Shown: piece by piece, positions 3,792 to 39,295 of the stretch
Layout: every line of letters starts with the position of its first letter
Position numbering within the stretch: the stretch's first letter is position 1
Assembly (NCBI RefSeq): GCF_900100315.1
Contig: NZ_FNFF01000004.1
Location: forward strand, 372,001 to 436,000
From: Streptomyces indicus
GTDB lineage: Bacteria; Actinomycetota; Actinomycetes; Streptomycetales; Streptomycetaceae
Reading direction: 5' to 3'
DNA: 64,000 nucleotides
Translations under genes and position numbers: made by a program
Notes under the pieces: model-generated
What the model was told of the DNA's origin: nothing
The model's input: the letters and a program-made list of their open reading frames with translations, nothing else
The model's database searches: none

Positions 3792-4540
3792 CACCGGTAC
3801 CCATAGCGGCACAGCAGGATCACGTGAGCGGCGGCGGCGTTCACTTCGCCTTCACCAACCGGTGGGGTGGAGTGAGCGCCGCTCCGTACGAGCAGCTCAA
3901 TCTGGGCGGAGCGGTCGGCGACGACCCCGCGGCCGTGCTCCGCAATCGCGAACTCGCCGCGCATTCCCTGGGGATCGACCCCGGCAGGGTCGTCTGGATG
4001 AACCAGGTGCACGGCAAGGACGTCGCCGTCGTCGACGGGCCCTGGGACTCCGGAACGGAGATCCCTTCCGTGGACGGGGTGGTGACCGCCCGCCGGGGCC
4101 TGGCCCTCGCGGTGCTCACCGCCGACTGCACCCCCGTACTCCTCGCCGACCCCGAGGCCGGCGTCATCGGCGCCGCGCACGCGGGGCGGCCGGGGATGGT
4201 GGCGGGCGTGGTGCCCGAGACCGTCGAGGCGATGCGCAAGCTGGGCGCCGAGCCCGAGCGGATCATCGCGCGCACGGGACCCGCGGTCTGCGGCCGGTGC
4301 TACGAAGTACCCGACGCGATGCGCGCGGAGGTCGCGGCCGTCGAGCCCGCGGCTCACGCGGAGACCAGCTGGGGAACGCCGGCCGTCGACGTGACGGCAG
4401 GTGTGCGGGCCCAGTTGGAACGGCTCGGTGTACGGGACCTCGCGGGGTCCGGCGTGTGCACCCGGGAATCCGCGGACCACTTCTCGTACCGCCGAGACCG
4501 CACCACCGGGCGGCTCGCAAGCTACATCTGGCTGGACTGA
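3788..4540 (+). CDS. pgeF: PgeF/YlmD, peptidoglycan-editing (laccase-domain, YfiH family) protein
   Basis: A single-domain 250-aa member of the YfiH/multicopper-polyphenol-oxidase family. E. coli PgeF is reported to remove wrongly built UDP-MurNAc-peptides, which fits the neighbourhood. Expected metal and active-site segments are [21 protein letters not shown] and AAHAGRPGM. The GTG start overlaps the ftsZ stop (GTGA), so translation is probably coupled. The ftsZ-ylmD-ylmE-sepF-ylmG-divIVA order is conserved in Gram-positive bacteria. The exact substrate in actinomycetes is inference. Confidence 0.92.
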
Positions 4541-37281: not shown

Positions 37282-38031
37282 TCAGTTGAGGCTGGTCGGT
37301 GCCCGGGTCAGCTCGACCGCGGGCAGCGAGGGCAGGTTACGGAGCAGGGCCGTCTCGGAGCGAAGGAGTTTCAGCTCCTCATGCAGCCGGCTCGCCGTGT
37401 CCGCCGCCTCCAGGAGACGCTGCTTCGCCGGGACGTCGAGCACCGCGGCGGCCGCCACCAGGTACGACACCACCGAAGGGTCGTCCGGCAGTTCGGCGCC
37501 GGTGGCGAGGCTGCGCTCGCGGGCCCCGGCAAGGCGCTTCTGGTACGCGCGGAACGCCCGCAGCACGCCCTCGGCGAGCGCGCCCGCCTCCTCGCCCTGC
37601 TCCTCGGGCAGCTCTTCGAGTTCCGCCGTCAGATACGCGCCGCTCGCGTCCACCGACAGCAGCCGCACCCGGGTGGTGCCCGTGGCCAGCACCTCGAAGC
37701 TGCCGTCGGCGCGCTCGCGCACCGTGGCCGCGTCGGCGATGCAGCCCACCGCGTGGAAGGCCTTCAGGGGGTCCTCGCCGAAGCCGGCGGCCGGGCCCTT
37801 CTCGACGGTGGCCGTCTGGTCCGGCAGTCCGGGCGCCGCCGGGGCCACCTCGTGTCCGTCGCGGATCGCCACGACCGCGAAGCGGCGCGCCTCCTCGGCC
37901 TCCTCGGGCGCGGCCTTGACCAGATCGCGCATCATGGCCCGATAGCGCGCCTCGAAGACGTTCAGGGGCAGCACGAGACCCGGGAACAGCACGGTGTTCA
38001 GCGGGAAGAGCGGAAGCCGGACGGTGGTCAC
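37282..38031 (-). CDS. LON substrate-binding-domain protein
   Basis: A 249-aa protein with only the N-terminal substrate-binding domain of Lon protease (LPLFPLNTVLFPGLVLPLN) and a C-terminal helical part; there is no ATPase or protease domain. Stand-alone LON-domain proteins are common in actinobacteria and of unknown role. The GTG start is only 14 bp from a MITE-like element, and TAAGGT formed at the junction is its only apparent -10 box (38040-38045). Confidence 0.88.
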   Translation of the reverse strand: MTTVRLPLFPLNTVLFPGLVLPLNVFEARYRAMMRDLVKAAPEEAEEARRFAVVAIRDGHEVAPAAPGLPDQTATVEKGPAAGFGEDPLKAFHAVGCIADAATVRERADGSFEVLATGTTRVRLLSVDASGAYLTAELEELPEEQGEEAGALAEGVLRAFRAYQKRLAGARERSLATGAELPDDPSVVSYLVAAAAVLDVPAKQRLLEAADTASRLHEELKLLRSETALLRNLPSLPAVELTRAPTSLN

Positions 38032-38045
38032 GGCTCTTTACCTTA

Positions 38046-38294
38046 GGGCCTGTCTTCAGTCTCCCGTCTGTCGGGCGACGCCTGGCACGCACGCTCGCTG
38101 CGTTGTCGTCGGTCGCCGACTCCCCCAAGCTCTCGGCTTCGCTCGAGCAGGGGGGACCCCCATCGCGTCGACTCCCTCCTCCGCCTTGCGATCGCACGCT
38201 CCCCCAAGCTCTCGACTGCGCTCGAGCAGGGGGGACCCCCATGACGCCGCCCGACCGCCCCTTCGGGCGACGACGGGAGACTGAGGACAGGCCC
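38046..38294. mobile_element. MITE-like 249-bp element
   Basis: Terminal inverted repeats of 23 bp (38046-38068 and 38272-38294), starting GGGCCTGTC, differ at one base. TA flanks both ends, as a target duplication would. There is no coding frame inside. Two 44-bp copies of an internal palindrome-rich unit are present. The ends resemble those of IS5/IS630-type elements, from memory, so a transposase elsewhere may move it. Confidence 0.8.
38120..38242. repeat. Two 44-bp copies of a C/G-run palindrome unit
   Basis: 38120-38163 and 38199-38242 match except at two bases: CTCCCCCAAGCTCTCG, a short spacer, then CTCGAGCAGGGGGGACCCCC. A shortened variant is at 57779-57809, before the HGxxPAAW gene. 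Confidence 0.85.
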
Positions 38295-39295
38295 TAGTGG
38301 CCGCCCGGAGTGCGCCGTGCCCGCAGTGGTGTGGCCGAGGCGACCTCCAGGCGGACGCCGTCGCGCAGCTCCAGGAACTGGCCGAGCGGGTCGTCCGAGA
38401 TCCGGTCCCAGGGGAACGAGGTCGCCTGCGCTCCGATCAGACGCAGCTGCTCCAGGGCGTCCTGCCAGCGTTCGAGGCGGATCAGGACGTACGTGAGGAC
38501 GTTGCGGACCTCCGCCGGATACGGGTCGCCCGCCTCGTACGCGGCCGAGAGCACGATCGCGCGGTCGGCGGCGGCGTCCAGACGTGCGCGCGGCACGCTG
38601 GAGCCGGGACCGGTCAGATACGCGAGGGCGGCGCGGGCCGGCAGGGCGTGGATCAGCGAACCGGGCAGGGCGTCCTCGGCGGCCCGCTCCGCGAAGTCGA
38701 AGCACTCGCGGTGCGAGCCGTACCAGGCGGCCGAGAGGTACTGGACCGCGGAGGTGTGGCAGCCGTAGTGGTGCGAGGCACGGCTCGTGGCCTCCTGCCA
38801 CAGCGCGTCGAAGACGCCGCGCGAGGCATGGGTCCCGCGGGCGTGGTCGAGCGCGAGGCGCCAGGGGACCGGGTCGCGCGGGTGGCCCGCGGCGGAGGCG
38901 GCGCCGATCAACGGCGCGGCGTCGCGCAGCAGTTCCGCGTACGCGGGGGACTCCCAGGCGCGGGCCAGGGCCAGCTCGGCCTTCACGAGCAGGGCGTCCG
39001 GGTCCTGCGGACGGTCGGCGAGCCAGCGCTCGAACCAGTCGGGCCTGCTCCGGGCGAAGGCGGCGAGCCGCCGGGAGTACAGGTCGCGGCTCTCCCACGC
39101 GGCCTCTTCGCGGGTGGCCGCGAGCAGCTGTGCCGCGGACTCGTAGTCGTCCCGGCCGGCCGCGACGAGGGCGGGGGCCAGCCGGTCGTCGGGTGCGTCG
39201 AGCAGCATCTCGTCGTCGGCCGGGAGGCCGAGGGCGAGATGCCGGGTGTGCTTGAGCATCCGGGCGGTGCCGATGAGAGCGCGTAGCAGTGCCAT
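38294..39295 (-). CDS. Hypothetical helical-repeat protein, stop codon at element border
   Basis: A 333-aa soluble protein I cannot name. Its sequence alternates amphipathic helices with Ala/Leu/Asp/Trp-rich motifs (DRPQDPDALLVKAELALARA) typical of TPR-like superhelices. A His/Tyr/Cys patch ASHHYGCHTSAVQYLSAAWYG lies near residue 175. The TAG stop takes its third base from the last base of the MITE-like element. It lies downstream of, and in the same direction as, the next minus-strand gene, 98 bp away. Confidence 0.75.
   Translation of the reverse strand: MALLRALIGTARMLKHTRHLALGLPADDEMLLDAPDDRLAPALVAAGRDDYESAAQLLAATREEAAWESRDLYSRRLAAFARSRPDWFERWLADRPQDPDALLVKAELALARAWESPAYAELLRDAAPLIGAASAAGHPRDPVPWRLALDHARGTHASRGVFDALWQEATSRASHHYGCHTSAVQYLSAAWYGSHRECFDFAERAAEDALPGSLIHALPARAALAYLTGPGSSVPRARLDAAADRAIVLSAAYEAGDPYPAEVRNVLTYVLIRLERWQDALEQLRLIGAQATSFPWDRISDDPLGQFLELRDGVRLEVASATPLRARRTPGGH

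Follow-up and report, generated by a model that had tools for sequence, protein, structure and literature searches.

A 249-bp insertion between gene B and the LON gene

Positions 38046 to 38294 of the window (the whole stretch of 64,000 nucleotides that was analyzed) raise the question of how a piece of 249 bp came to lie between two genes and what it did to them. On the minus strand, gene B (38294 to 39295), which has no Pfam match, precedes a gene encoding a LON substrate-binding domain (37282 to 38031; PF02190; E value, 1.2e-36). The initial annotation had placed between them a MITE-like element with 23-bp inverted termini, containing one mismatch and flanked by TA, and these features were seen as claimed: the left terminal repeat (38046 to 38068, plus strand) and the right one (38272 to 38294, minus strand) form, together with the TA copies at 38044 to 38045 and 38295 to 38296, inverted arms of 25 nucleotides (38044 to 38068 and 38272 to 38296) that are 96% complementary. 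The terminus was matched twice within the window, whereas 100 shuffled versions gave 0.00 matches on average. Since the two sides of this copy read TTAG and CTAG, a 4-bp duplication of CTAG was rejected.

The alignment with relatives lacking the element, which had been proposed as a check, bears out the insertion. Among 80 orthologous B-LON loci (those kept of 261 relatives), the gap between the two genes measures 5 to 11 bp in 73, 22 to 70 bp in six, and 155 bp in one; in a further set of 20 loci with both genes, which overlaps the first in some genomes, it measures 5 to 11 bp in 19. In the closest relative, Streptomyces mesophilus (L082; gene B 88% identical), the site is empty and reads ..GH TAA GGTAGAGAGTC GTG, and the window without the element and one TA reads ..GH TAA GGTAAAGAGCC GTG. 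With empty sites in relatives and inverted termini flanked by a duplicated TA, the stretch is a real insertion at TA, and it is of the MITE type, being short and noncoding, with terminal inverted repeats, a target duplication, and an empty site (general MITE features are described in PMC2229807).

The proposed genome-wide search for other copies was likewise productive. The genome itself (an 8.2-Mb assembly of 45 contigs, whose nearest named relatives are Streptomyces) contains two closely similar copies, each about 180 bp long (G000:C25 and G000:C38) and mutually 98% alike, as well as pieces elsewhere and four matches to a covariance model of the element's core. Because the ~180-bp copies lack two 43-bp stretches of the window copy (38121 to 38163 and 38200 to 38242, both plus strand), and because these two stretches are one repeat that is also dispersed alone, at seven further places in this genome and many places in relatives, the 249 bp are a composite of a MITE and two nested repeats. 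This composite nature and a long, strand-biased hairpin are the two points that the initial annotation missed. The first nested unit sits at the hairpin's apical loop and the second in one arm, and each replaces 4 to 5 bp of the plain MITE. The 43-bp repeat is palindromic (TCCCCCAAGCTCTCG..CGAGCAGGGGGGACCCCCAT) and was found nested in MITEs at several positions, also at L048, L275, L281, and L283.

A conserved folded core with variable ends

MITEs are normally recognized by ends common to one helper and by decaying interiors. In the family described here, this conservation is inverted, the core arms varying less than the terminal repeats (mean difference between elements of 0.22, versus 0.41 at terminal positions 3 to 20). 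Simple 16-nucleotide clustering divided 81 elements with defined ends into 25 terminus types, a few of them doubtful end calls without TA. The core covariance model found matches in 69 of 81 sampled Streptomyces genomes and, in the class sample, in 39 of 148 genomes and 17 of 81 genera. The window element is one member of a widespread actinobacterial family, in which the folded middle is conserved and the ends vary to resemble different transposons, and this family is a more interesting result than the single insertion. Searches of open full-text articles yielded neither such a Streptomyces element family nor the 43-bp unit.

In the window, the conserved hairpin core (38084 to 38202, minus strand) matches covariance model R1 only partially (39.6 bits; G000:C27:410084-410202) because of the nested units, and one arm carries a side hairpin, CGCCCGAAGGGGCG on the minus strand (38256 to 38269), seen in sequence and folding. 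The better-folding hairpin RNA of this IS5-type MITE is that of the minus strand (z score, -7.0), and an unnested copy reaches -142.5 kcal/mol on one strand (z score, -13.3) versus -111.7 on the other. All 31 nonredundant elements, which are related by descent, fold better on the same strand. The core alignment (A2) holds 26 of the 28 elements of set A1, which was drawn from 57 found elements by keeping nonredundant ones with a clear core, adding L003 and L083, and leaving out five of 243 to 249 bp. The core covaries: 92.1% of the alignment cells pair (80.9% in shuffles), the covariation score is 0.348, compared with 0.158 for shuffles, and it collapses in slid versions; of 500 shuffles, uncontrolled for relatedness, none reached any of five measures of structured-RNA covariation. 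A search of five loci against Rfam returned no match over the gathering score, the best being at chance level (25.3 bits against a cutoff of 70).

We infer from these features that the core is probably conserved as a single-stranded RNA structure. A serious competitor, to which we give a chance somewhat short of even, is that the interior is conserved as DNA, through sites for the transposase or for host proteins or through arm-to-arm repair of the palindrome, with the strand bias inherited from one ancestor and no function as RNA; no transcript is known. The excess of G-U over A-C cells (164 versus 14) is open to such an account, since the motif GTGCGTGC, present on the same strand in both arms, by itself accounts for 91 of those 164 G-U cells. 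Counted by pair type, moreover, departures from the majority are 15 for G-U and 11 for A-C, and because this difference is not significant, much of the G-U bias may be inherited. Outside the motif, however, G-U cells still outnumber A-C cells (73 versus 12), and both the same-strand folding of all 31 elements, read with their common descent in mind, and the covariation that is lost in slid versions argue for the RNA reading.

Several variations on the core were observed. The apical stem (columns 38 to 65 of A2) changes almost completely between subfamilies and mostly still pairs; two alternative lower stems occur (GCAAGGCGG/CAACGC and GGCGTGCCGG/CCGGTGC); and there is a subfamily of 243 to 246 bp (L228, L235, L236, L238, and L270, in genomes G208 and G071) in which long additional arms separate the ends from the core.

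Many of the variable ends are IS5-like. DUF4096/PF13340-type IS5-family elements, which we take to be the IS427-like group, have the same CTAG-type target, ends (GG..TGTC), and TA flanks as the MITE, which has no transposase, and many MITE ends resemble those of particular insertion sequences (ISs). Of 60 such loci examined in the same genus, 23 have TA-flanked repeats, and 19 of these 23, several of which are copies of one IS, lie between CTA and TAG, so that their ends take the form CTA/GG.../TAG. Some IS end is matched at 15 or more of 18 positions by 32 of 91 element entries, and when only the ten inner bases are compared, 40 of 77 unique MITE ends match one of 23 listed IS ends at 8 or more positions, against a mean of 0.57 in a shuffle null whose occasional high values extend to a maximum of 19 at 8/10. 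In one genome, an IS5-family IS and a MITE adjoin head-to-tail, with one TA common to both. For an actinobacterial IS5 element, a CTAG direct repeat has been reported (PMC9241763).

The genome of the window copy carries an IS5-family IS, the ends of which are unlike those of the window copy beyond the common outer bases; no IS with the exact terminus was found in this genome, and the best match to any collected IS end was 14 of 18. Furthermore, in 3 of 10 genomes searched, all three being non-Streptomyces carriers of the core, DUF4096 gave no match, so other transposases must act there. An IS5-family remnant in two DUF4096 frames (L163; G000:C14, from 7418 leftwards) has one end, TAGGGCCTGTCCGGCGGATCAT, of a type that terminates MITEs in other species (e.g., L431).

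Possibly, although we put this forward as a rather doubtful reading, the family is a transposase-agnostic parasite, the interior of which would have been repeatedly re-ended from IS5-family and some non-DUF4096 transposons, outliving its helpers, and would persist in dense, high-GC genomes by way of stop codons restored by its terminal G. If this is true, the interior would serve, in RNA or single-stranded form, some purpose under selection, such as aiding its own transposition or silencing. Two questions become testable in this family: whether nonautonomous elements change helpers and whether the interior of a MITE is under selection.

Set beside known elements by description only, the family has partial counterparts. 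RUP of Streptococcus pneumoniae is short, has a TA target, and is presumed to be mobilized in trans by an IS whose ends are similar (PMC2229807); that description links it to a single IS (IS630-Spn1), whereas the Streptomyces interior carries about 25 terminus types. ERIC and Correia/NEMIS are MITEs of 100 to 200 bp from other hosts, their ends bearing TA and their transcripts forming stem-loops, and the description available in PMC2229807 makes no mention of a conserved interior with exchanged ends. For BOX, also of S. pneumoniae, PMC3049150 reports 36 genes with a stop codon inside the repeat and no good evidence of truncation; here, in contrast, the stop is rebuilt precisely from the duplicated TA and the terminal G.

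Insertions at stop codons

A MITE at the end of a gene has been described (PMC5896051), and in the present family this arrangement is common. The 23-base terminus pattern (at most three mismatches) occurs in 41 of 199 Streptomyces genomes, and a reversed control pattern occurs in none. A first set consisted of 100 fetched copies of this pattern and five loci from the genome of the window copy; of these 105 loci, 99 yielded a usable end, and ends that lacked an intact TA or had a 15-nucleotide flank in common were left out before counting. C precedes TA at 140 of 151 ends, CTAG being the preferred target. At 71 of 151 ends, TA and the G of the element give an in-frame stop to the coding frame that scores best, a count obtained after the threshold and window of the coding classifier had been relaxed (41 of 185 in an earlier, stricter run). 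At least one end completes the stop of a neighboring gene in 65 of the 99 copies and in 27 of 35 copies of a second set, whose ends are diverse (CTAG at 55 of 70 junctions). Among control CTAG sites from 800 kb of five of these genomes, treated with the relaxed classifier, 34 of 114 have a stop-completing frame (Fisher test, 2.6e-7 for the first set and 1.0e-6 for the second). The copies show the CTAG/YTAR target with TA duplication of an element mobilized by the IS5 family, and an IS5 transposase probably moves the MITE in trans.

For the G000:C38 copy, which lies at a stop codon, a second empty-site comparison covered 29 orthologues, and 28 of them end at the same residue (the 29 stops being 17 TAG, 11 TGA, and 1 TAA). 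In annotated plasmids, three coding sequences end in TA plus the G of the element; of the other three plasmids, one record is unannotated there, one has no coding sequence at the ends, and in one a coding sequence ends inside the element. The possibility that stop-completing ends are mostly insertions into tyrosine codons (TAC) was rejected, since it needs G or A before the other TA, where C or T stands at 146 of 151 ends.

Stop codons are probably favored because insertion there is harmless, and the stop-codon rule explains how insertions can build up in gene-dense genomes without truncating proteins. Two other explanations of the pattern appear improbable. The transposase might actively target the 3' ends of genes, instead of merely preferring CTAG with subsequent loss of harmful insertions; an enrichment of 2.2- to 2.6-fold relative to CTAG sites from this genus is what such targeting would give, but purifying selection against insertions in genes and promoters yields an equal enrichment, and only surviving insertions are seen. 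Slightly less probable still is that the hairpin serves the host as a transcription terminator, attenuator, or RNase III site, and that the element persists at gene ends for this reason and not because it is harmless there. A very stable, covarying hairpin (with the z score of -13.3 in the unnested copy) enriched at gene 3' ends would suit this role, yet its orientation shows no bias with respect to the stop-completed gene, the better-folding strand being sense at 30 ends versus 33 (the second set divides evenly, 15 to 15), and the B-LON site is empty in most relatives.

Besides full-length elements, the pattern search also matched copies of about 60 bp (L205, L255, L284, L303, and others) in which two termini stand almost back to back, with no core between them.

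Consequences for gene B and the LON gene

Judged from the sequence, the insertion between gene B and the LON gene leaves both formally intact and is one case of this general pattern. As the initial annotation had noted, the element supplies the third base of the TAG stop of gene B (38294 to 38296, minus strand), which consists of the target TA at 38295 to 38296 and the C at 38294, the terminal G of the element on the coding strand. The claim that the gene was trimmed thereby did not hold up: the reconstructed empty site (..GGH TAA, 11 nucleotides, GTG) and that of S. mesophilus (..RGH TAA, 11 nucleotides, GTG) match, so the stop of gene B was already at that residue before the insertion, and no residue was lost.

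The other TA copy forms, with the AGGT next to it, the sequence TAAGGT (38040 to 38045, minus strand), which had been named as the -10 box of the LON gene. As a candidate, this box stands. Sufficient upstream sequence was present at 108 LON loci, and GTG was aligned at 105 of them (the window's own locus is included, and some genomes count twice); in all 105, a TANNNT box ends 6 to 8 nucleotides before this GTG, against a chance expectation of 0.6% at random positions. The distance is exactly 8 nucleotides in 102 of the 105; the box reads TAGGCT in 50, TACGCT in 40, and TAAGGT in 3. Such a box would fit a leaderless promoter. Its supposed creation by the left junction does not stand, since TA is the duplicated target, AGGT is host DNA, and the box of S. 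mesophilus also lies 8 nucleotides before GTG; the -10-like box is ancestral, and the insertion changed only the sequence upstream of it. In species with an adjacent TAG or TAA stop, the TA of the box doubles as the stop codon of gene B.

The explanation that we favor, and hold with considerable confidence, begins with a nonautonomous MITE that an IS5-family (DUF4096-type) transposase, targeting CTAG or YTAR and duplicating TA, would have mobilized in trans. The element entered a CTAA site, predicted to read CACTAAGGT when empty, whose single TA began both the TAA stop of gene B and the LON -10 box. Duplication of this shared TA left both intact: one copy combined with the G at which the element begins to give gene B a new TAG stop at the same residue, and the other, followed by the host's AGGT, kept TAAGGT for the LON gene. 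Counting against this explanation are the failure to find an IS with the exact terminus in this genome, the three core-carrying genomes in which DUF4096 gave no match, and the relaxation of the coding classifier. The initial reading, in which the insertion shortened gene B and the left junction made a new -10 box, drew on the last base of the stop lying inside the element and on TAAGGT lying at the junction, and it can be set aside with hardly any reservation, given that element-free S. mesophilus has an equivalent TAA stop and the same TAAGGT and that the box recurs at all 105 aligned loci.

The same B-LON TA has been entered by another element. In Streptomyces sp. NRRL B-3428 (L083, positions 4018 to 4203), a different MITE of 186 bp, with ends GGGGGTGTCCGGCGGATCA, accounts for the one long B-LON gap; its left flank reads CA instead of TA, and gene B reads on into it. 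We rejected a single inherited insertion as the origin of both elements: the TA site is common to them, and their ends and core subtypes differ.
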